Source: Chthoniobacterales bacterium (GTDB lineage Bacteria > Verrucomicrobiota > Verrucomicrobiia > Chthoniobacterales > UBA10450). Taken from it: a DNA stretch of 35,650 nucleotides. A program made the translations under genes and the position numbers. Location: positions 1 through 35,650 of the forward strand of contig QHBM01000079.1 in NCBI GenBank assembly GCA_003244145.1, read 5' to 3'. The notes beneath the pieces were generated by a model that was not told the origin of the DNA, ran no database searches, and saw nothing but the letters and a program-made list of their open reading frames with translations. How positions within the stretch are numbered: the stretch's first letter is position 1; every line of letters begins with the position of its first letter. Positions 2,697 to 28,638 of this stretch are shown in pieces.

Positions 2697-3271
2697 CCTG
2701 CGGCAGTCGGTGTTCTCGGTCCCAGAACGCGGCAGGGATTGCCGGCCGCCATCACGTCGGGCGGAATGTCTCTCGTGACAACGGAACAGGCGCCGATCAC
2801 GCTCCGGGCGCCGATTGTGATGCCCGGCATGACAAAAGCCCGCGCGCCGACGAACGCGTCGTCGCCGATCGTGATTTTGGCCGTGACGAGTTGAAGCGCG
2901 GGGTGTGAAAAATCATGGGTGCCCGTGCTGAGATATGCTTCCTGCGCCACGGTCGCGCGCTCGCCGATTTCAATTTCGCCCAGGCTGTAGGCGTTAGCGC
3001 GATCGCCCAGGCAGGCGCGATCGCGCAACGTGAGATGCCACGGGATGGCGATGCGCGCGCGTTGGTGTACGAATGGTTTTCCCTCGATCGTGGCGCCAAA
3101 AACATCGAGCCAGAAGAGGCGCCAGGGGTTGAGGGGTTTCGGCGTCCAGACGCAAAAAACGAACCAGCAAAATTCCCAGAGCAAACGAAGCGCCCGGTCG
3201 CCCGGCGACCAAGGCGATTCCTGCGCGACGCTTTGCTCAGGTTTGACCGGTGTTTTTATCTCCATGCGCAA
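2693..3271 (-). CDS. WcaF-like hexapeptide-repeat acetyltransferase
   Basis: A 192-residue left-handed beta-helix acyltransferase resembling the putative colanic acid acetyltransferase WcaF. The region 64-165 shows the imperfect hexapeptide ladder (for example AKITIGDDAFVGARAFV from 131). STGTHDFS at 116-123 carries the likely catalytic His119, and the C-terminus has the usual GNPCRVL. It probably transfers acetyl from acetyl-CoA to a sugar of the repeat unit or its lipid-linked precursor. A hydrophobic, Trp-rich stretch (30-60) precedes the helix, as in WcaF relatives, and may touch the membrane. A second ATG two codons downstream is an alternative start. It overlaps the FkbM gene by 4 bases and is separated from the upstream GT4 gene by 53 bases of repeat-like DNA. 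Confidence 0.88.
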   Translation of the reverse strand: MRMEIKTPVKPEQSVAQESPWSPGDRALRLLWEFCWFVFCVWTPKPLNPWRLFWLDVFGATIEGKPFVHQRARIAIPWHLTLRDRACLGDRANAYSLGEIEIGERATVAQEAYLSTGTHDFSHPALQLVTAKITIGDDAFVGARAFVMPGITIGARSVIGACSVVTRDIPPDVMAAGNPCRVLGPRTPTAAG

Positions 3272-18691: not shown

Positions 18692-20857
18692 CTAGGACGA
18701 TTGGATCTGCTTGGGCTGAGGATGAAGAGTGGTGGCAGCGACCTCGTCGTGCTCCTCAACCGGCACCGGCGTGTTGTAGTACTCCGAATATTGGTAGTAA
18801 TAATATTCCGGCAGCGAGGTATCGACGTAATTCAAAATGACGCCGGGCACATTGACCTGGCGATTGTAAAGCAACTCGAGCGATTTGCGGGTGAGACGCG
18901 CGGAGGTATACGAGAGCCGCACCACGAAAAGGGTCGCGTCGATCTTCGGCGCCAGGCTGGTGGAATCATCCGCGGCCAAAACCGGCGAGCTATCGATGAG
19001 GATGTAATCGTAGTGATTGTACATCTCCTTCAAAAGCTGATCGGTCGATTCGCGCAGGAGATGCTCGCTCGGCTGGCCCAGCGTTTTGCCGCGGGGCATC
19101 AGGTAAAGGTTGGGATAAGAAGTCGGGACCACCACTTCCTGCCAGTTCACTTCCTGTTTCAGCACTTCTGAAAAACCGATCTTCGAGGAAACGCCGAACG
19201 ATTCGCGCAGCGCGCCGCGGCGGAGATCGCCGTCGATCAGCAAGGTGCGCGCGCCCGAAAGCGCCATGGTGATGGCGAGGTTGGAGGAGATGGTCGACTT
19301 GCCTTCGTTAGGCACAGAGCTGGTGATGAGGAGCGTCTTCGGACGCGGTCCCTCATATGGCATGAAGAAAATAGACGAGCGGATATTGCGATACGATTCG
19401 GCGAAGACATGGCGGGCGTCGTCGGGCTGAAGCAAGGTGACGCGGCCCTTGGTTTTCTCCTTCGGAATCTGGCCGAGAACGTTCTCGGAAAACTGGTGCT
19501 GAAATTCGCCGAAGGAGGCCATGCGATCGTCGATCCGATCGAGCAGGAGGAGAATGCCGATGCCGGCGAGGGCGCCGCAACCGAGACCGATCAACAGACT
19601 CTTGAGCAGGCCGGGCCGCACGGAGATTGGCGCGCCGGCCATTTCCATGATCGAGATCTGATCGCCGCTATCGACGCTTTGCGAGACGTTGATGTCCTTA
19701 AGATTGTTGGTGAGGCGATCGTAGAGTGTCTTCAATCGCTCGGCCTTTCCCTTGATGCGATTGAATTGCGCGAGCCGCTGACTCAAATCGAGGGCCTTGG
19801 CTTCCCATTCCTTGATGTTGGTCTGCAGATTCTCCATCTGTTTCCCGATCGATTTCCGGCGGGTCTCGAGTTTCTCAACTGTGTCCTGCCGATAAAGTTC
19901 GATCAATTTTTCCTGCTTGGTGATCTCGTCATTGATCTTGATGATTTTGGGGTGCTTGGGCCGGAGATCTTTCGAAAGCGTCTCCCGTTCCGCCTTGAGC
20001 AACTGCAGCGTTTGCTTCGCCTTCAGATAATCGGCTTCCGGACCTACGTCCGAGAATGCCATGCCGGGCGCTTTTTCGTCGGTCGACTGGGTGCTTGGCG
20101 GGGTGGTCCCATCGTTCTTGCCCGAAGTCCGATCCAGATTCTGGTCGAGATCGAGGAGGCTCAAGAGGTCGTATTCAGTTTTGAGCTGCGCGTATTGCTG
20201 ATTGAGGCGGACGAGATATTGGGCCGCGCTGTTCCCTTCTTCCTGGATGAAGCCGATGTTGTTTTGCTTCTGGAAGTCGAGCATTTCGTCCTCGCTGTTC
20301 CGCAAATCCTTTTCCACCTGGATCAACTGCTCGGTGATCGCGGTCGTGACGGTTGAGCCCTGGTTTTCGCGCAGGCCCTTTTTGAAATCCACGTACTTCT
20401 GCATGACCGCGTTCAAATAAGCCTGGGTGTACTCCGGGGTGCTGCCGATCGCGACCAGGTCGAAAATCGACGTGCGCGGTTTCTGGGTGACGGTGATTTC
20501 CACCAGGTGGGGCTGCAATTCCGGATGGGTCGAGCGGACGAGGGCTTCCGCGCTGCGTCTCACTTCCGCGCTCTGCATGAGTTGAATCTGGGTGCCGTAA
20601 AAATTCACGCTGTCTTCGCTGTAAACGGCGCTCTGGCTGATGTTCATCTTGCCGGCGAGCATCATCTTGCTCATCGATTGAAATAGCGGCGGGGTCTGAT
20701 AGCTCAGCCAGGATTGGACAAAAAGGCCGAGGCAGATGGTCAACACCGGAATCCACCAGCGGCGCTGGAGGAGCGATTTGTAACGATGAAGCCGCGTGAT
20801 AAACGCAGTGCTCCAGGGTGCGGAAGCGGGACGATCGGTGGCGGCGGGCGCTGGCAT
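18692..20857 (-). CDS. Wzc-like polysaccharide co-polymerase / bacterial tyrosine autokinase
   Basis: A 721-residue fused chain-length regulator and BY-kinase. The N-terminal membrane helix is near 34-52 and the second near 418-440; between them is a long periplasmic coiled-coil-rich region (about 170-385) ending in the G-rich motif of the Wzz/GNVR type. The kinase domain has Walker A SSVPNEGKST (513-522, Lys520), Walker A' LLIDGDLRRG (539-548) and Walker B YILIDSSPV (618-626). The tail carries seven tyrosines within Y685-Y694, the autophosphorylated cluster of this family. It controls chain length and export through the adjacent Wza-like protein by phosphorylation cycles. The ATG follows the Wza stop by 2 bases. 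Confidence 0.95.
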   Translation of the reverse strand: MPAPAATDRPASAPWSTAFITRLHRYKSLLQRRWWIPVLTICLGLFVQSWLSYQTPPLFQSMSKMMLAGKMNISQSAVYSEDSVNFYGTQIQLMQSAEVRRSAEALVRSTHPELQPHLVEITVTQKPRTSIFDLVAIGSTPEYTQAYLNAVMQKYVDFKKGLRENQGSTVTTAITEQLIQVEKDLRNSEDEMLDFQKQNNIGFIQEEGNSAAQYLVRLNQQYAQLKTEYDLLSLLDLDQNLDRTSGKNDGTTPPSTQSTDEKAPGMAFSDVGPEADYLKAKQTLQLLKAERETLSKDLRPKHPKIIKINDEITKQEKLIELYRQDTVEKLETRRKSIGKQMENLQTNIKEWEAKALDLSQRLAQFNRIKGKAERLKTLYDRLTNNLKDINVSQSVDSGDQISIMEMAGAPISVRPGLLKSLLIGLGCGALAGIGILLLLDRIDDRMASFGEFQHQFSENVLGQIPKEKTKGRVTLLQPDDARHVFAESYRNIRSSIFFMPYEGPRPKTLLITSSVPNEGKSTISSNLAITMALSGARTLLIDGDLRRGALRESFGVSSKIGFSEVLKQEVNWQEVVVPTSYPNLYLMPRGKTLGQPSEHLLRESTDQLLKEMYNHYDYILIDSSPVLAADDSTSLAPKIDATLFVVRLSYTSARLTRKSLELLYNRQVNVPGVILNYVDTSLPEYYYYQYSEYYNTPVPVEEHDEVAATTLHPQPKQIQSS

Positions 20858-20859
20858 GA

Positions 20860-21537
20860 CTACATGTTGATCAAACGCTGCGGCACATAGATCTGATCGT
20901 CCGGTTGGAGCACCAGGTCTTCTTCGCTGTGGCCTTCCTCAATCACCCGTTTCAAATCAACGACGAAATCGTGACCGCCCTTGCGCGTCACCTTCACTTT
21001 GCGCTTATTCGCGAAATCGCCAAACCCACCGGCACGGATGATCGCCTTGCTTACCGTATAAGATTCGTCAGTCGGTATTTCCTGCGGCCCCTGCCCCTTC
21101 ACTGATCCATAAACGTATACTTTCCCGCGCGATTTCTCGCTGATGTGATCGACCGCAATGATCACGGTCGCGTGGTAATAATACTCGCGCTCGAGCGCGG
21201 CCTTGACCGTGTAGGCCAGTTCCTTGCAGCTCTTTCCCGCGGCCGGGACGAGACCGATGTAAGGAACTTCCAGTTCCCCATTGTCGTTGACGCGGAGATG
21301 CTGGGATTCGTTGTCGCGATCTTCGACAACGCGGAAGCTGACGTAATCGTTAGACCCGAGTCTCTTCTTGTCGTCCAGCACGTTCATGGAATTGGTCCGC
21401 ATGACCGTGCTGGTGGTGGGCGGCTCGACCGCCGCGGCTTTGGGAATCGAAGGCACGGGGCTGCTTTCCTGCGCCGGGAGCGCCAAAGGCCGCGCCACAA
21501 AGGTAGCGACGAGGAAGATGAAGGCCCAGGTTCTCAT
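20860..21537 (-). CDS. Wza-like polysaccharide export protein
   Basis: A 225-residue secreted protein with a signal peptide (MRTWAFIFLVATFVARPLALPAQ, cleavage near 22-23). The polysaccharide-export domain begins near LGSNDYVSFRV and has GELEVPYIGLVPAAGKS, followed by an SLBB-type segment (VYVYGSVKGQGPQEIPTDESYTVSKAIIRAGG) and the closing LQPDDQIYVPQRLINM. It is shorter than E. coli Wza (about 380): it has one SLBB-like domain, no C-terminal membrane helix, and no lipobox cysteine after the signal peptide. It probably forms the periplasmic part of the export channel with help from the beta-barrel protein encoded before it. An AGAGGAG motif lies about 14 bases before the ATG. Confidence 0.88.
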   Translation of the reverse strand: MRTWAFIFLVATFVARPLALPAQESSPVPSIPKAAAVEPPTTSTVMRTNSMNVLDDKKRLGSNDYVSFRVVEDRDNESQHLRVNDNGELEVPYIGLVPAAGKSCKELAYTVKAALEREYYYHATVIIAVDHISEKSRGKVYVYGSVKGQGPQEIPTDESYTVSKAIIRAGGFGDFANKRKVKVTRKGGHDFVVDLKRVIEEGHSEEDLVLQPDDQIYVPQRLINM

Positions 21538-21558
21538 GAAAGTTCAATGGTCTCCTCT

Positions 21559-22926
21559 TTAGAAGCTATAGGTGCCATCAAACCCGACGCGATTTTGCCG
21601 GTAATCGCGCAGCGGCTGATCCGAATCTTTCTGTGTGTATTGATATCGAAGTCCAAGCGTAACGTGGGGCGTCAACTGGTAACCGACCGTGACCGCGCCG
21701 CCATAGCGATGGATGTGTTCCGCCACGAACGGATTGATATTTGGAACTCCGGGCACGGGCGCAAACAATATACCGCTTCCCCCGGAATCGTCCGCGTCCT
21801 CGTAAAACAACTCGGTCGAGAGGAGCGTGTGATAAAGAATGTTCCAGTTAGCCGTGTGCCGGACGTAATTGAGTTTCACGTAGTTGGAATTGACGCCGAG
21901 CTGGGTTTCGTGGCCGGCCGAAATATTCTGGGTCAACACCGAGTTGACGCGATGTGAGAGCAACACGTTTGCGTAATAATCGTTCAGATCGTGCGCATCG
22001 TTGACCAGGCCGGTGTTGTCGAAATTGATCATCTGATAGCCGCCGGCGACGCGTAATTTCAGATAACTGGTGAGCTGGGTCTCAAGGAATCCACCCACGC
22101 TGTAGTTGACCGAGTCGTTCAAGATATTCTGGTCGTAGGACGTATTAACGATCGATCCTTCGATGCCGACCGTCATGGTGGAAGTCGGAGTAAACCCGAT
22201 CGATCCCGAAACGATGTCCGCGTTCCGATCCAGATAATCGAAGACAGAATTGGTCGAGATGAAATTGTAATGGTCGTAGCCCAGGGTGACGACGGCCTTA
22301 TTCAAATCCCACAAGACCGAGATGCCGGCCGTATTCTGGAAGCGGCCGTAATCGGCCACGTTGCTGAGAGCGACTTCCGCGACGGGGTCCTGCTCGAGGG
22401 AAAAGCGATCATGGAGGTTGATCCGGAAATCGCTCACAAAAATGTCGAAGGCGAGCTGCGATCCGGGCTGAATCAGAACGCCAGTGGTATTGTAGCTGGA
22501 GTGGTCGAGGTAGATGGCGTAACCGACGCCGAGATCGAGCTTGAGGGTATTGAGCTGGGTGATCGGCCAAAGCGCGTCGATGTTGACCTGCGGCCGCAGG
22601 ATGATATCGCTCTGCGGCATAGTCGTCACCAGGATCGGGCCGGTGGGACTGGGGATGAGAGCAGAGCCGTCTTCGGCCAGGTTGATGTTATCGTTGTACT
22701 CGATTCCCATGGTCGCGCTGAAACGGAACTTCATCGGCCCGAGTTGCAGGTTGTAGGGAATCTTGTCGATCGATTGGCGGCGCGCTTCGGCGGCTTGTTC
22801 GCCGGCGAGCGAGGGACGAATGGCATCCTGGGCGCGCGCGATGGGTGCGGCGCCAAGTAAAGGAACCAGAAGAGCGAGCGCAATTTTGCGTGCGAACAAG
22901 GAAGAGGGAGTGGCTGGACGGCTCAT
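21559..22926 (-). CDS. Outer-membrane beta-barrel protein of the EPS locus
   Basis: A 455-residue exported protein. The ATG at 22926 is chosen because it gives a proper signal peptide (MSRPATPSSLFARKIALALLVPLLGAAPIARAQ); 42 more codons upstream have no such signal. The mature protein is made of alternating-residue amphipathic strands (for example FRFSATMGIEYNDNINL and VTLGLRYQYTQK) and ends in VGFDGTYSF, the terminal aromatic of the barrel-insertion signal. It matches the putative beta-barrel porin family seen in EPS and exosortase loci. Given the truncated Wza-like neighbour without an outer-membrane helix, I infer that it forms or helps the outer-membrane exit. It is the first gene of the operon. 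Confidence 0.82.
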   Translation of the reverse strand: MSRPATPSSLFARKIALALLVPLLGAAPIARAQDAIRPSLAGEQAAEARRQSIDKIPYNLQLGPMKFRFSATMGIEYNDNINLAEDGSALIPSPTGPILVTTMPQSDIILRPQVNIDALWPITQLNTLKLDLGVGYAIYLDHSSYNTTGVLIQPGSQLAFDIFVSDFRINLHDRFSLEQDPVAEVALSNVADYGRFQNTAGISVLWDLNKAVVTLGYDHYNFISTNSVFDYLDRNADIVSGSIGFTPTSTMTVGIEGSIVNTSYDQNILNDSVNYSVGGFLETQLTSYLKLRVAGGYQMINFDNTGLVNDAHDLNDYYANVLLSHRVNSVLTQNISAGHETQLGVNSNYVKLNYVRHTANWNILYHTLLSTELFYEDADDSGGSGILFAPVPGVPNINPFVAEHIHRYGGAVTVGYQLTPHVTLGLRYQYTQKDSDQPLRDYRQNRVGFDGTYSF

Positions 22927-22950
22927 GTGGGTGTCAATCCGGTGGTAGTT

Positions 22951-22966
22951 AGCAGATGTGATACCA
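22951..22966 (-). promoter_or_regulatory. Possible sigma-54 -24/-12 element for the EPS operon
   Basis: On the minus strand TGGTATCACATCTGCT agrees at 8 of 12 informative positions with TGGCACG-N4-TTGCW and has the required GG-N10-GC spacing. The predicted start point would be about 14 bases before the ATG at 22926. GG-N10-GC is not rare in GC-rich DNA, so this is tentative. Confidence 0.28.
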
Positions 22967-22972
22967 AAACTT

Positions 22973-22997
22973 TTGAGAGGCCCCGACGCGCTCTCAA
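22973..22997. repeat. Inverted repeat upstream of the EPS operon, possible operator
   Basis: Seven-base perfect arms TTGAGAG and CTCTCAA are separated by 11 bases. Its placement just upstream of the candidate -24 element would suit a regulator binding site. No regulator gene of an evident matching class is adjacent. Confidence 0.35.
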
Positions 22998-23222
22998 GAC
23001 CGCGGGCGCAACCGGCGCACGCTGATTTTGGTTGGGAAATTTGATGTTTCAATGGTTAAGGCTATGAACGCCGATTCTTCTAGCGAGAGAAGGGCACTAC
23101 GGCAAGGAAAATCGCTGGGGTCCGTCGGGAAGAATGGGCTGAATTCCCCGAAGCCAAATTGTTTTACAGGAATCGGGTAATAAATGGCGCCTCCGGAAGC
23201 GGTTGCAAAAAGTCGGCGACCT

Positions 23223-23254: not shown

Positions 23255-24451
23255 ATGGCTCTAAGTATTGCCCGCAAGCTGGCGCGCGCATCCGCTGTCT
23301 TCGCGCTTCTTTTTTTTCTCTTCCCGCTCCAATCCACTCTGGCCGGAGAAACTTTTGGCCCGGCCGATGACAGCAACGCCGCCAAAAATCTTGCCCGCAT
23401 GAACTGCGGCGCGCGAATCGATATCATCACCCCTGACGGACGAGTCGTGGCGGAGATCCCGGGCGCAACCGCGAAAGATGCAAACGCCTCCGCCCTGATC
23501 ATGGATGACGACACCGTCAGTGTCCCGCTGCACGAAGGCGACACCACTTTCATCATTGCTTTTCCGAGAACGTCGGCGCTCGACCGCTTCACCTTTGTAA
23601 ATGAGAACGGCTCCGCCGAGGGCGAGATGAAAGTCTCGGTCTCGAATTATCGGTTGCCCGCCCAGAGTTCGAAATGGATTGAGGTGAACGGGAGCACGCT
23701 CTTCACGCATCAGCGGCACTTCAATCTCTCGCTCCTCGGTGTGGAAGCTCGCTACGTAAAACTTTCCTTTCACGTCCAAAAAGCCGGCCGGATCGCGGCG
23801 CTCGGCCTTTATGGCGCCCAATCGCTTCAGAAATTTGCTTCGCGCCAGAGCAGCGTCGTCCGCGTCAAGAACCTCATGGCAGCGCGCCGGCTCGAAGACA
23901 TGCTCAATTTTAATTTCGCGAATCTTTACGCGAAGGCCCGGGTCGTTTTCGTGAGCTCCGGCGCGGAAGAATCCGCCCGCCGCATGATCGACGACGATAC
24001 CATAACCGCTTATCGGTTCGCGGCCGCGGACCCGCATCCGACGGTCATCGTCGAGTTGGCGGAACGGGAACGGCTCCATCGCATCAGTGCCCTCTACAAA
24101 ATGCAGGCGGGCACGCTCGAAGTTTTCTTGCTCGATGAACTCGGATCAAATCCGGGCGACCTCAGCGGGGCAAAGCCGATCGCGTCCATCGTTGACGCGA
24201 GTGGCGGCGGCAAGGCCGCGGTAAACTTCGATCCTAATGGCGGACGCTATGTCGCTCTGCGCTGGACTCCCAGTGCGCCGGAAGCGATAAAAGTATTTGA
24301 GGTAGTGGAGATCAGCGCGTTCGGCGATATGCCGCTTTCGATGCTGAGTACGACGGAATTTCCGGACGTTTACGCGAGCAACACCGCGACCGAGGTCAAG
24401 GCCCCGGAGGTCCCCGTGGAATTACCCGTGCTTGCGCTGGTCAGCGAGTAG
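23255..24451 (+). CDS. Secreted protein with duplicated discoidin/galactose-binding-like module, unknown function
   Basis: A 398-residue protein with a signal peptide (hydrophobic core 13-25, cleavage near LAGE at 29-32). I do not recognise a named family. Two halves echo each other: a LIMDDDTVSVPLHEGDTTFIIAF segment around 81-103 and RMIDDDTITAYRFAAADPHPTVIVEL around 243-268, each followed by a strand pattern of the type LDRFTFVNEN / LHRISALYK. An acidic DDDT turn followed by a hydrophobic strand and a basic-aromatic strand is the look of F5/8 type C (discoidin) beta-sandwiches, which bind glycans. It has no C-terminal anchor or sorting signal. Lying between the EPS operon and the exosortase, it may bind or process the polysaccharide; this is inferred from position. 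Its 3' end overlaps the exosortase gene tail to tail by 11 bases. Confidence 0.8.
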   Translation: MALSIARKLARASAVFALLFFLFPLQSTLAGETFGPADDSNAAKNLARMNCGARIDIITPDGRVVAEIPGATAKDANASALIMDDDTVSVPLHEGDTTFIIAFPRTSALDRFTFVNENGSAEGEMKVSVSNYRLPAQSSKWIEVNGSTLFTHQRHFNLSLLGVEARYVKLSFHVQKAGRIAALGLYGAQSLQKFASRQSSVVRVKNLMAARRLEDMLNFNFANLYAKARVVFVSSGAEESARRMIDDDTITAYRFAAADPHPTVIVELAERERLHRISALYKMQAGTLEVFLLDELGSNPGDLSGAKPIASIVDASGGGKAAVNFDPNGGRYVALRWTPSAPEAIKVFEVVEISAFGDMPLSMLSTTEFPDVYASNTATEVKAPEVPVELPVLALVSE

Positions 24452-25976
24452 GCTTTTCCTTCGCCACGATTTCGCCCACGGTCTTGGCGACCGCGGCCTT
24501 CGCTTCCGCGAAGTCATCCATTCCCGTCACGGCGATTTCCAGCAGACGTTGACCGAGATTGCGTTTCCCATGCAGGGCCGCAAGCAGCCGGCCGCGCATG
24601 TTCCACTCTTCCGATTCCGCGGCGGAAGCGGCGAGCTTGTCTTCCTGGATGCAGACGAATACGAAAAGCGGACGGCCGTTCTGCTCGAATTCGTAGGAAC
24701 GAAAATCCAGGGAAACCAATCCAGCCGGCACGTTCACGTCGGGGCGGGCCGTTCGAAAAGTGCGGCCGATCGCCGGCAAACAAATCTCCGGTGAATGGCT
24801 GCGCACGAGCTGGAGCGCGGCGCGCTGCGGTTTCCAGTGCGCGAAAAAAGCCCACCAGTGCACGCCGCGCGGCGCTTCCCACGCGGCCGTCTTCGCGTCG
24901 TCGTAGTGGAGAATCACGCGCGTCGAATCGGGAATAGGGAGCGGCGCGACTGTTTCATTTTGCGGCCAACTGACTTGCCACGCCGGGCTCTCGATCAGTT
25001 GCCGTTCCTGGTTGCGGTACCAAAATTCGGTGCCGGCGAAAACCAATGCGAGCCACGCGAGCGCGCCCCATTGCGCCGGGAAAATTCGCGGCGGACCGGA
25101 TTTCCGCGGATCATCGCGCGGTTCGCCTTTCCACAGCCAGGCCAACCCAAGCATCCCGGCCATTCCGCCGATCAAGGCCGCGGTGCCGATCGCGTCATGC
25201 CAATGACTGAGCGCGTCCAAGCCGCTGTTGGCCGCGACAAAAACCAGGGCCGTCGCTCGAAAAACGTTGCAGACAAAAACCCAGCCGCAGCCGAGCACGA
25301 GCAGCGCAATGCGTCTGTTCCATCGCAGCCGCAGAAGTTCGCCCAAGACGAGCGCCACCATGATCCCGGCCTGGAGCGTTTTCACTCCGCTGCACGCTTC
25401 ATCGACGCCGACGAACCCGTTCCGCAACTGGATGACGTTGCCTAATTGATAAGCACCCACTCCAAACCAGCCGGCGATTTCCACCGCCACGGACGCGACC
25501 GCGCGCATCATCGTTTGGACGACGAAGTTCTCAAATTGCACTGGCCACGGCACCGCCACGAGCGGAAAACAAACGGGAAACGCGAAATGCTTCAGCCATC
25601 TCGCCCCGCCCGCGCGGAGAATCGTGAGGAGGGAAAAATCGATCACGCAAAACGCCAGAACCCAGCTCAACAAACGCCAATCCGGATTGGCCTCCTCGAT
25701 GACGCGAATCGGAAAGAGCAGCGCCAGCGCGAAGGCCATGCTCACTTTGGCCATCGCGTTGTTTCGCGCGCCGATTTCGGGTGCAGGCCGGCGTTGCCAG
25801 CGAAAATAGAAGAGCAGCAGAGCGAGGAAGGGCACGCCCCAGCCGTAATTGTACTGCGGATTCAGCGACCACTCCACGCGTAGATGCGAGAACAACCACA
25901 GCCAGAGGAGGCCGGGAACCAGCCAGGGTGAAAAGCGATTAAGCGAGAACCGGCGCGGCATCCGCCAGAGATTCAT
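24441..25976 (-). CDS. Exosortase with fused C-terminal EpsI domain
   Basis: An integral-membrane cysteine transpeptidase-like enzyme that recognises and cleaves C-terminal PEP-CTERM-type signals. With the start at 25976 it has 511 residues; numbering below is from the longest frame (start 26027, 528 residues). The catalytic triad is clear: Cys212 in VDEACSGVKTLQ, Arg257 in VFRATALVFVA and His277 in WHDAIGTA, within about eight hydrophobic segments. After the last helix (about 319-333) comes a soluble periplasmic EpsI-type domain with HSPEICLPAIGR at 411-422. In many loci EpsI is separate; here it is fused. Starts at 26027, 26009, 25976 and 25961 are all possible, with no clear ribosome site. 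The exact exosortase subtype cannot be set by eye. Confidence 0.92.
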   Translation of the reverse strand: MNLWRMPRRFSLNRFSPWLVPGLLWLWLFSHLRVEWSLNPQYNYGWGVPFLALLLFYFRWQRRPAPEIGARNNAMAKVSMAFALALLFPIRVIEEANPDWRLLSWVLAFCVIDFSLLTILRAGGARWLKHFAFPVCFPLVAVPWPVQFENFVVQTMMRAVASVAVEIAGWFGVGAYQLGNVIQLRNGFVGVDEACSGVKTLQAGIMVALVLGELLRLRWNRRIALLVLGCGWVFVCNVFRATALVFVAANSGLDALSHWHDAIGTAALIGGMAGMLGLAWLWKGEPRDDPRKSGPPRIFPAQWGALAWLALVFAGTEFWYRNQERQLIESPAWQVSWPQNETVAPLPIPDSTRVILHYDDAKTAAWEAPRGVHWWAFFAHWKPQRAALQLVRSHSPEICLPAIGRTFRTARPDVNVPAGLVSLDFRSYEFEQNGRPLFVFVCIQEDKLAASAAESEEWNMRGRLLAALHGKRNLGQRLLEIAVTGMDDFAEAKAAVAKTVGEIVAKEKPTR

Positions 25977-26047
25977 CGCGCCGCGTGAAAAGGGCAACGC
26001 AGAAACCATATCGAAAATCACGCACAAACCGGAGCGCGCCGAGGTCC

Positions 26048-26063
26048 CGGCATGACGGGTGCT
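26048..26063 (+). promoter_or_regulatory. Possible sigma-54 element for the sorting-signal protein
   Basis: CGGCATGACGGGTGCT matches TGGCACG-N4-TTGCW at 9 of 12 informative positions with correct GG-N10-GC spacing. The expected start point is about 8 bases before the ATG at 26082. PEP-CTERM genes of Proteobacteria are known to be under sigma-54 and the PrsK/PrsR pair, which makes the match worth noting, but it is unproven here. Confidence 0.3.
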
Positions 26064-26081
26064 ATAGGCAATAACTCGATC

Positions 26082-26870
26082 ATGTCCTTTTCATTACGAC
26101 TTTTCCTTTCGCTCCTCTTGACTCCTTTCCTCGTTAGCGCGGCTCATGCGATCACTCTGGACTGGGACACGGTCACCTGGACGCCAGGGTCGCTGAGCAA
26201 TTCCTACGATGTCGATCCGACCAAACCGGGGAACGACATCTCGGTGAACATCACTGGCGACACAGGCCAGTTTGCACCGAAAGGGGGCAGCACGATTCCG
26301 GCGATCATGAATATTATCGAAGGCGGACTCACACCGGTGCAGAACGCCCTCGTTCTCCATCTCGATCTCGCAAATCAAAGTCAGTTCGTGACTGTTACCG
26401 TAAACTTTTCCGCTTCCTATACCCTCGGCGTTAACAATGTTTCCTTTACCATTTTCGACGTGGATTTCGCCAGTAGCGCGTTCCAGGATCAGCTTAGCTC
26501 CATCACCGCCCTTTCGATCGACGGCACGACCCTCGTCGCACCAACGATCACGACCAGCAGTGGAAATTCACTAAGTGGCAGCGGCCTCAATCAGATCGTT
26601 ACCGGCCTCAACAACAACCCCGACACCGGCGCCGGTTCGGACAGTGGAAACGTCACGATCAGTTTTGGAGCGACCGCGATCAAGTCATTCACTTTCACTT
26701 ACGGAAGCGGGGCCACTGCGCCGGCTGATCCTTCAACCCAGGGAATCGCACTGCACGACATCACCTTCACGCCGGTCCCGGAGCTCAACCCGGCCTGGAG
26801 CGGGCTCGCGGCGTGCCTGGTCGCCATAGGCCTCGCCTTTCGTCACCACGCCAATGTTCGCAGGAAATAA
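26082..26870 (+). CDS. Secreted protein with PEP-CTERM-like sorting signal, likely exosortase substrate
   Basis: A 262-residue protein with signal peptide MSFSLRLFLSLLLTPFLVSAAHA, then a Ser/Thr/Asn/Gly-rich, beta-strand-like body with no cysteine before the tail. The C-terminus has the three parts of a sorting signal: motif VPELNPAW (232-239), a hydrophobic helix (about 240-253) and a basic tail RHHANVRRK. The motif departs from canonical VPEP and from VPDSG, keeping P-E followed by L-N-P. It lies head to head with the exosortase and is the only such protein in the window, so it is probably a dedicated substrate. An ATG 10 codons upstream is possible but spoils the signal peptide. Body function is unknown; low charge and Thr/Ser content suggest a glycosylated surface or matrix protein. 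The gene overlaps the TPR gene by 17 bases. Confidence 0.85.
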   Translation: MSFSLRLFLSLLLTPFLVSAAHAITLDWDTVTWTPGSLSNSYDVDPTKPGNDISVNITGDTGQFAPKGGSTIPAIMNIIEGGLTPVQNALVLHLDLANQSQFVTVTVNFSASYTLGVNNVSFTIFDVDFASSAFQDQLSSITALSIDGTTLVAPTITTSSGNSLSGSGLNQIVTGLNNNPDTGAGSDSGNVTISFGATAIKSFTFTYGSGATAPADPSTQGIALHDITFTPVPELNPAWSGLAACLVAIGLAFRHHANVRRK

Positions 26871-28638
26871 CGAGTGCTTCGGCAACGTGCGCACCTTGGA
26901 ACGGCGCGATTTTTATTTGCTCTGGACGCGCCGGTTCGCGGCTTGCCTTCTCCTCGCGATTCTCGCGTTCGGAAGTTACCGCGGCTATGGGGTCTGGAGA
27001 GAGCGACATCTGGCCAAACAAACCCGGGAATTTCTGGCGAAGGGCGATTACCAGAGCGCGGTCCTCGTCGCCTGCCATCTTTTGGAGCTGAATCAAAACA
27101 ACGTGGCAGCTTGCCGCGTCATGGCGGAAACCGCGGCGCTCGCGGGCCGCGGCGAAGCCATTTCGTGGCGCCAACGGGTCGCGTCGCTGGAACCGAACGC
27201 ACCCGAAAATAAGATCGCACTCGTTAGCACCGCGCTGCGCTTCGGTCAGTTCGATCTTGCTCGGAAAGTGCTCGACGCGATCGAGCCGTCGGCGCGTGCG
27301 AACGTGAAATATCATCAGCTAGCCGGCGCTCTCGCCGTCGCGGAAAAACAGCCCGCCGCCGCCGAAACCCAATTCGCCGCCGCGCTCCAGCTCGAACCAA
27401 ATAATCAGCAGCTCGCCCTCAATCTCGCGACCGTCCGTCTTGCTTCGACCGATCCTGCGACCAACGAGAAGGCTCGCGCGGATCTCATGCGGCTTTCCAG
27501 CGAACCGGCGGTGCGCGTCGAATCGCTGCGCACGCTGGCAGCCGATGCGCTCGCCCGAAATTCCCGCGTCTCCGCGGAAAAATGGGCCGCGGAATTGAAA
27601 TCCGAAAAGAGCGCGACCTTCGCCGATTTATTGCTTTATATGGAAGCCACCAAGGGAACAGAAGCCGCCCAAGCCGTCCTTGCGGAAGCGGAATCCCACG
27701 CGGCCGAATCACCCGCCACCGCCGCCGCGCTTCTCACCTGGATGAATCGCCACGACCTGGCGTCAGCCGCGCTCAAGTGGGGTTTGAGCCTGCCCAAAAA
27801 AACTCTCGAGACTCAACCGGTTCCGCTCGCGCTCGCCGAAGTTTACAGTTTTCTCCAGGACTGGCGCGGAATGGAAGCGTGGGTCGACGGGAAGGATTGG
27901 GGCGATCAGGAATGTTTTCGGCTAGCCGTGCAAAGCCACGCGTTGCACCACCTCAGTCTCGTCGATCGCATGTCGATGGAATCGGAAACGATCTGGCGCG
28001 CCGCATTGAAGGCAACGAAGGCGCGCCCGGAACGACTCGCGGCCATCGCACAACTCGCGGAAGGCTGGGGCTACACGGCCGATGCGGAAGAGGCCTGGTG
28101 GATGATCGCGAACGGAAACGAAAACGCGAAGGAAGCGCTGGGCGCGCTGCAGCGTCTCTATAAATCCAAAAAAAATAGCCACGGCCTGCTTCGCGTGGCC
28201 AAACGCGCGCTCGAGTTGAATCCGGCCGATCTCGTGGCCGCGAACAATTGCGCGAGCCTCGGCTTGCTCCTGACCGGCGACAGCTCGGCGCGGCGGCTCG
28301 CCGGCAAACTGCACTCGGAAAATCCGACCAACGCGGTCTTAAACACCACCTTCGCTTTCGCGCTCTTTACCGAAGGCAAAATCGCGGCCGCACTCAAGGC
28401 GATGGAAACGTTAAAAGAAGCGCAGCTGCGCAGTCCCGCGGTCGCCGCTTATTATTTTGTCATGCTGGTCGAGAACGGAAACATGGAACGCGCCCATTTG
28501 TTTCTTTCCGCCGCAAACAAGGCCGCGTTGCTTCCAGAGGAACAGGAGCTCCTCACTGCGGCGACGCGCAAGCTGCTCAACCACGATTCGCAAAATGTGG
28601 CGAAAAGTGTTGCCGCGGCGGACTCGCCCAGTCCGTAG
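26854..28638 (+). CDS. Membrane-anchored TPR-repeat protein of the exosortase unit
   Basis: A 594-residue protein with a short cytoplasmic lead, one membrane helix at about 29-43 (AACLLLAILAFGSYRGY) and then a long alpha-helical repeat domain, probably periplasmic. Repeats are of TPR/half-TPR type, for example AREFLAKGDYQSAVLVACHLLELNQNN (near 57-82), LAGALAVAEKQPAAAETQFAAALQLEPNNQQ, and ALELNPADLVAANNCASLGLLL near 450. Long TPR proteins (PrsT-like) accompany exosortase and EPS loci elsewhere, where they are thought to scaffold the export or sorting machinery. It starts inside the end of the sorting-signal gene, so the two are co-transcribed and probably coupled. No enzymatic motif is seen. 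Confidence 0.85.
   Translation: MFAGNNECFGNVRTLERRDFYLLWTRRFAACLLLAILAFGSYRGYGVWRERHLAKQTREFLAKGDYQSAVLVACHLLELNQNNVAACRVMAETAALAGRGEAISWRQRVASLEPNAPENKIALVSTALRFGQFDLARKVLDAIEPSARANVKYHQLAGALAVAEKQPAAAETQFAAALQLEPNNQQLALNLATVRLASTDPATNEKARADLMRLSSEPAVRVESLRTLAADALARNSRVSAEKWAAELKSEKSATFADLLLYMEATKGTEAAQAVLAEAESHAAESPATAAALLTWMNRHDLASAALKWGLSLPKKTLETQPVPLALAEVYSFLQDWRGMEAWVDGKDWGDQECFRLAVQSHALHHLSLVDRMSMESETIWRAALKATKARPERLAAIAQLAEGWGYTADAEEAWWMIANGNENAKEALGALQRLYKSKKNSHGLLRVAKRALELNPADLVAANNCASLGLLLTGDSSARRLAGKLHSENPTNAVLNTTFAFALFTEGKIAAALKAMETLKEAQLRSPAVAAYYFVMLVENGNMERAHLFLSAANKAALLPEEQELLTAATRKLLNHDSQNVAKSVAAADSPSP

Follow-up and report, generated by a model that had tools for sequence, protein, structure and literature searches.

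How exosortases distinguish their substrates is, to our knowledge, an open question, and a compact locus of a Chthoniobacterales bacterium (GenBank assembly GCA_003244145.1) raises it for a single gene cluster. The window, that is, the whole 35,650-nt stretch of contig QHBM01000079.1 that was analyzed, encodes an exosortase (EXO), a secreted protein with a C-terminal sorting tail (SUB) and a tetratricopeptide repeat (TPR) protein as neighbors. A preliminary description had taken EXO and SUB for a dedicated enzyme–substrate pair with a motif of its own. Does EXO serve SUB through such a motif, or is SUB handled by a general sorting enzyme? Comparison with related genomes supports the dedicated pair: EXO, SUB and the TPR protein quite probably form a self-contained sorting unit of a distinct exosortase subtype, better described as dedicated to one or a few substrates than as strictly one to one. 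The contig is C120 of its own assembly (3.63 Mb, 173 contigs, 88.45% complete), and the searches also covered a 58-genome sample of relatives, 83 genomes of the family and a class-wide sample of 384 genomes.

The enzyme, its probable substrate and the tail

The longest open reading frame (ORF) of EXO spans 24441–26027 on the minus strand with a TTG start, but the ORFs of two close orthologues begin at the codon aligning with the ATG at 25961, and 24441–25961 is therefore the likelier gene. EXO matches PF09721 at 135.1 bits (cut-off 25.7) and TIGR04178 at 52.1 bits (cut-off 23), and by these cut-offs and its invariant Cys, Arg and His it is a member of the exosortase superfamily. The triad C212, R257 and H277 (190, 235 and 255 when counted from the ATG instead of the TTG), read as intact in the preliminary description, is unchanged in 53 of 53 aligned exosortases; one locus of an initial 54, in G055, yielded no exosortase ORF and was dropped from the alignment and tree. 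Subtype profiles, which that description had proposed to run, left EXO under the cut-off of every named NCBIfam subtype among the matches listed, namely XrtA, B, C, D, G, H, J, N, O, Q, R, T, V, W, X, Crt and Art. The best subtype score was 80.7 of 208 bits for XrtA, the general model TIGR02602 gave 66.6 of 105.55, XrtC gave 25 of 300, and no exosortase E match was among those listed at E ≤ 1.

SUB (26082–26870, plus strand) is divergent from EXO. Its ORF could begin at the ATG at 26052, but the start at 26082 is likelier because the orthologue alignment favors it and the earlier ATG sits within a conserved upstream element. A signal peptide is followed by the body and the sorting tail, in which the signature VPELNPAW (26775–26798) precedes a helix and a basic tail reaching to 26867, an architecture that had been described correctly. 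The TPR gene (26854–28638, plus strand) overlaps the SUB gene by 17 bp (26854–26870), again as described, and the longest TPR ORF overlaps the SUB gene end at all eight loci with the unit. Its product carries an N-terminal hydrophobic anchor, which like the signal peptide of SUB was read by eye from the sequence, and matches TPR_19 at 43.8 bits; against PrsT (TIGR02917) it scores 65.2 bits, under the cut-off of 312.2.

The tail is distinct from the modeled sorting signals. At E ≤ 1 neither PF07589 nor any NCBIfam model matches SUB, an own-genome PF07589 search at E ≤ 10 gave eight matches without SUB among them, and the 14 tails of its kind described below gave only two weak matches at E ≤ 10, to NF038129 (0.064) and NF051874 (3). 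A plain PEP-CTERM tail (PF07589/TIGR02595) was ruled out on these results. The motif is VPELNPA and not VPDSG, which places SUB outside the VPDSG-CTERM/XrtC group.

A DNA pattern for PE-hydrophobic-NPA gave 51 matches across the 58 genomes, 14 of which are C-terminal tripartite tails in which a hydrophobic stretch and then basic residues follow (NPA tails). All 14 fall in seven of the eight genomes that carry an EXO orthologue and none in the 50 non-carriers, 34 of which gave some other exosortase-like match (E ≤ 1e-5). A V precedes PE in every one of the 14, which the pattern did not require, and across the orthologue loci the motif is VPE[ILMV]NPA; the PEL-NP motif of the preliminary description stands as the signature of a separate tail, amended to this form. 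A hidden Markov model (HMM) of the tail recovered the same 14 over the 83 family genomes at E ≤ 6e-12, with VPETNPA in G017 (8.7e-6) and VPEINPM in G033 (1.4e-5) next and the rest from 0.0017 upward.

The number of targets is small. In the own genome (88% complete) a single NPA tail was found, that of SUB, and one was likewise found in G007 (98% complete); counts are one each in G000, G007 and G033, two in G005 and G006, three in G004 and four in G009, which has two enzymes. At least two are thus found in G004, G005, G006 and G009, and in G033 if VPEINPM is counted, so the proposed exclusivity may hold in the own genome but widens to one to three substrates per enzyme in relatives. Searching with the SUB body without its tail gave 16 matches in nine of the 83 family genomes. 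Fourteen lie in carriers, 13 of them with VPE[ILMV]NPA and one with VPEINPM; the other two are the VPETNPA protein of G017 and a distant match in G020 ending LPESSAG. The tail is a module, because a 1018-aa NPA-tailed protein encoded beside EXO in G009 has a similarity to SUB that is confined to its final ~36 residues.

A search of the plasmid collection gave no match to SUB. The AlphaFold2 model of SUB is beta-rich (mean predicted local distance difference test (pLDDT) score 53.1, predicted template-modeling (pTM) score 0.57), and of 581 Foldseek matches to the PDB at E ≤ 10 none reached E ≤ 0.001; no fold is claimed.

Distribution of the unit and coexisting tail classes

EXO orthologues (about 55% identity or more; E ≤ 1e-125 in the family set and E ≤ 1e-118 class-wide) occur in eight of the 58 relatives at nine loci, G009 having two, and in eight of the 83 family genomes. 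Class-wide they occur in six of 384 genomes, all six from the same family; G015 and G033 are not among these matches and were evidently not drawn into that sample. Named metagenome-assembled genomes with an orthologue include Verrucomicrobia bacterium AV80 (77% identity) and Spartobacteria bacterium palsa_1414 (73%). The nine orthologues form one side of a 100/100 branch in the tree of 53 exosortases.

EXO, SUB and TPR are neighbors with VPE[ILMV]NPA tails at eight of the nine loci, which bears out the co-occurrence that had been put forward as a check. The ninth, in G015, lies on a contig of 3.5 kb that holds EXO, a piece of the flanking gene HYP and another, truncated ORF divergent from EXO. 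Both unit copies of G009 (L049 and L050) have two NPA-tailed proteins: in one copy a pair of SUB genes separates EXO from TPR, and the other has the 1018-aa gene between EXO and SUB, with a TPR gene that runs to the contig end. Loci L146 and L147 are apparently those already counted in G006 and G004 and were counted once. In G001, G002, G017 and G019 the slot holds no remnant of EXO, SUB or TPR (tblastn, E ≤ 1e-3), while the EPS (extracellular polysaccharide) genes, HYP and genes beyond are kept; beyond the slot lie a short-chain dehydrogenase/reductase (SDR) gene and a kinase gene in G001 and G002, and the SDR gene is also gone in G017 and G019. The contig of G070 stops in HYP, and this genome was left out of the empty-slot count and kept as a non-carrier in the neighbor-protein tree. 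Because that tree requires two changes of carrier status, loss, or repeated gain at the same slot, has occurred.

HYP (23255–24451, plus strand), a conserved protein with a weak F5/8 type C match, flanks EXO at eight of the nine orthologue loci and is convergent with it, with an 11-bp end overlap. It was considered as a fourth member of the unit and ruled out, being kept in the four empty slots and shortened in G001. On its other side lie EPS export genes on the minus strand, coding for a Wzc-like kinase (18692–20857), a Wza-like export protein (20860–21537) and an outer-membrane beta-barrel (21559–23052), with glycosyltransferase-like ORFs, as read from the translations, also in the locus. 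The export genes (18692–23052) adjoin the unit and also adjoin the empty slots of relatives.

Two exosortases only were found in the own genome (PF09721, E ≤ 1), EXO and one on contig C52. The latter has a TPR gene downstream with one small ORF between, and C52 proteins end VPEPSTW and VPEASTW. C52 accounts for four of five own-genome PF07589 matches above the cut-off, and two of the four were confirmed as C-termini; the other two and the C139 match (21 bits) are not established as tails. The preliminary description had held that many canonical VPEP- or VPDSG-CTERM proteins and several exosortases would count against it; a second exosortase with VPEPSTW and VPEASTW proteins does exist, but as a separate linked unit. 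SUB and the proteins of the second exosortase bear different signals, so insulation of the two channels from each other is probable.

Seventeen genomes of the exosortase tree carry a clade about 40% identical to EXO, and 11 of them have unlinked VPEM[SN]A tails. No such tail was found in G007, G009, G020, G024, G026 and G032, with three G024 sites left out of a side-search for VPEMxA in which part of the listed sites was checked. One batch of that search gave 56 matches, 25 of them through the tail filter (two of these duplicates), and the other gave 39 matches, with two through the filter, both weak and neither VPEM[SN]A. A further exosortase clade occurs in G017, G019 and G033, which are also among the 11, and in G015, and in all four a VPEMSA substrate lies head to head with it. 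At L168, L169, L170 and L114 an exosortase of another clade than that of EXO is head to head with one protein of ~190–209 aa ending VPEMSAL or VPEMSA-like, which from its layout looks like a second dedicated pair. The own genome encodes on C8 a secreted protein with a VPEMSALFPI tail beside a TPR gene (L257:5234–7790). G003 has no exosortase match, no PF07589 match at E ≤ 0.05 and no NPA match, and its three VPEMxA matches are not tails. At L102:2767–4836 and L274 (G004 and G005), VPEMNA- and VPEINPA-tailed proteins are encoded near each other and are presumably sorted by different enzymes.

A distant exosortase–SUB–TPR trio in another family (L207:7660–12035, G049) has a SUB homologue (31% identity) ending VPEASQ, and by its gene content is a candidate unit of the same kind with a different tail.

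An upstream element and candidate specificity residues

Sigma-54 promoters have GG-N10-GC spacing. A sequence of this kind (-24/-12), GGCATGACGGGTGC at 26049–26062 on the plus strand, lies upstream of SUB, and the 14-base form GGYA-N7-TGC is found 25–48 nt before the aligned SUB start in all nine linked copies. It precedes 11 of the 16 SUB homologues that have upstream sequence, including the unlinked ones of G017 (18 nt upstream) and G004:C23 (34 nt), and is absent from five (G033:C153, G004:C22, G006:C19, G005:C2 and G049). None of 14 other tail-bearing genes has it, and these include the gene of the 1018-aa NPA-tailed protein and those of the two C52 proteins. At seven loci it precedes eight of 89 ORFs of at least 200 aa, four of the eight being SUB, and the background is 30 matches in 265,312 strand-bases, SUB copies included. 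A scan with a stricter sigma-54 pattern had its sole window match at 3025. A hybrid kinase near the unit is CckA-like and stays below the PrsK cut-off (81.5 of 300). Conservation of the element suggests that SUB may be produced on demand under putative sigma-54-type control. The same pattern is seen 38–39 nt before the EPS outer-membrane barrel gene at two of the seven loci (L046:4156–5520 and L052:10110–11468).

The C-terminal half of EXO contains H-x-P-x-x-C-x(4)-G (24765–24797, minus strand), unchanged in all 53 aligned exosortases, which suggests a possible further active or ligand site. As for the EpsI-type fusion of the preliminary description, the only EpsI-model match of EXO is to NF045608 (14 bits against 228), and it has no Pfam DUF3485 match at E ≤ 1. 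In a 15-member alignment that includes it, PF11984 matches eight members (best 5.3e-8) but not EXO itself, TIGR02914 three (best 0.0018) and NF045608 seven; the region is likely, if weakly, EpsI-like. Among the clade-specific positions, defined as shared by nine of nine in the EXO clade and at most two of 44 elsewhere, are T217, which lies five residues past C212 (T in 9/9, S in 44/44 others), and S410 and S412, on either side of H411, an invariant residue of the EpsI-like region. Common ancestry can by itself explain such residues. An AlphaFold2 model of EXO from a three-row alignment (mean pLDDT 35.5) was discarded.

Weighing the readings

Several points weigh against a dedicated unit with its own code. 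The DNA pattern sets P, E, N, P and A beforehand, the tail HMM was built from the 14 pattern-found tails themselves and its scoring in the larger genomes was confined to 91 first-look candidates, and counts from related genomes are not independent. G017, without an EXO orthologue, retains a SUB homologue with VPETNPA (L154:1372–2184) and the sigma-54-like element, and in G015 an EXO orthologue is present with no NPA tail found (3.5-kb contig, genome 85% complete). VPEMSA accompanies two enzyme clades, the VPE[PA]STW label requires two changes on the tree, and in the own genome, at 88% completeness, neither exosortase class that accompanies VPEMSA in relatives was found; its orphan VPEMSA protein might reflect an assembly gap, or EXO might also serve VPEMSA. 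As for control, GGYA-N7-TGC was devised after viewing five of the loci, and at some loci its distance to the aligned start codon (18 nt in G017, 25 nt in G033) is tight for a promoter.

Of the alternatives, the one that fares best is an ordinary general exosortase, in which the NPA tail is a drifted PEP-CTERM and either enzyme handles both tails. Family, catalytic residues and the tripartite tail are indeed those of PEP-CTERM, VPE is common to SUB and the C52 tails, and the G017 VPETNPA and own-genome VPEMSA proteins lack their usual enzymes, but all 50 non-carriers, 34 with other exosortase-like matches, are without a VPE[ILMV]NPA tail; tail motifs largely track enzyme clades, and enzyme, substrate and TPR are jointly missing from the slot in four relatives. 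We regard it as improbable. Still less credible is a coincidental or decayed neighborhood with SUB merely membrane-anchored and not acted on by EXO, since, even though the unit adjoins an EPS locus and several exosortase relatives have no recognizable linked target, unlinked SUB paralogues and the 1018-aa protein with another body have VPE[ILMV]NPA only where EXO occurs, the catalytic residues are intact and the EPS genes persist without the unit.

The self-contained unit can be extended to a fuller picture, which as a whole we consider doubtful: paralogous exosortase–TPR units of this family as parallel insulated channels with a tail code each (VPE[PA]STW, VPEM[SN]A and VPE[ILMV]NPA), an NPA unit gained or lost whole at one and the same slot, sigma-54-controlled SUB, specificity set by a few residues such as T217 near two putative active sites, and SUB coupled covalently to the neighboring EPS.

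Relation to known systems and significance

VPEID-CTERM/exosortase E is reportedly a single-target system, and VPDSG-CTERM/exosortase C is said to be a system of Verrucomicrobia. They share with the EXO unit the subtype-specific VPE/VPD motifs and the concept of a single-target exosortase, but the EXO motif has no ID or DSG and EXO is far below the XrtC cut-off. No NPA motif or subtype was found in NCBIfam, Pfam or the literature, the last at listing and abstract level and without Haft 2012, the main paper on the subtypes and the source for both of these systems.

According to Haft et al. 2006 (PMC1569441), PEP-CTERM/EpsH (exosortase A and relatives) has the same Cys/Arg/His exosortase, tripartite tail, EPS neighborhood, TPR partner and sigma-54-like sites upstream of targets, the last reported there for PEP-CTERM genes in Proteobacteria, and an EpsI-like region that EXO probably shares. 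The EXO unit differs in its VPE-hydrophobic-NPA tail in place of PEP, in the number of targets found (one to three for each enzyme, where that study gives eight as the median for a genome), and in its scores against the XrtA and PrsT models (80.7 of 208 and 65.2 of 312.2) and that of the nearby hybrid kinase against PrsK (81.5 of 300). Dedicated systems, a term that PMC3237569 applies to sorting enzymes with one target per genome, tend there to be adjacent pairs in the case of rhombosortase, and the single target of a dedicated rhombosortase/GlyGly-CTERM pair is, like SUB, encoded beside its enzyme; rhombosortase is an unrelated serine protease, whereas EXO is a Cys exosortase accompanied by a TPR gene. 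By these comparisons EXO/NPA is a candidate new exosortase/signal subtype, not a new kind of machinery.

In the proposed mechanism, SUB would be exported by Sec, as its signal peptide suggests, and be retained in the inner membrane by its tail; EXO would recognize VPE-[hydrophobic]-NPA, C212 would attack beside the motif and the body would be passed to an acceptor. Cleavage, transfer and the scaffold role follow what is described for exosortases and archaeosortases in PMC1569441, PMC3237569 and PMC11980579. The TPR protein is probably, by analogy, a scaffold through which SUB reaches either EXO or the EPS machinery. The acceptor could plausibly be a lipid or a glycan from the neighboring EPS pathway, which would leave SUB linked to EPS or the outer surface.

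The comparison yields a motif and a subtype that can be used in searches and that went undetected here by PF07589 and by the NCBIfam models. Some Verrucomicrobia appear to carry a three-gene unit with its own C-terminal tag, apart from a more standard tag system elsewhere in the same genome. Enzymes that are related but differ in tail motif occur side by side in one genome, and the targets of the NPA enzyme number one to three, one of them adjacent, which makes specificity open to tests in which short tails or single residues are exchanged.

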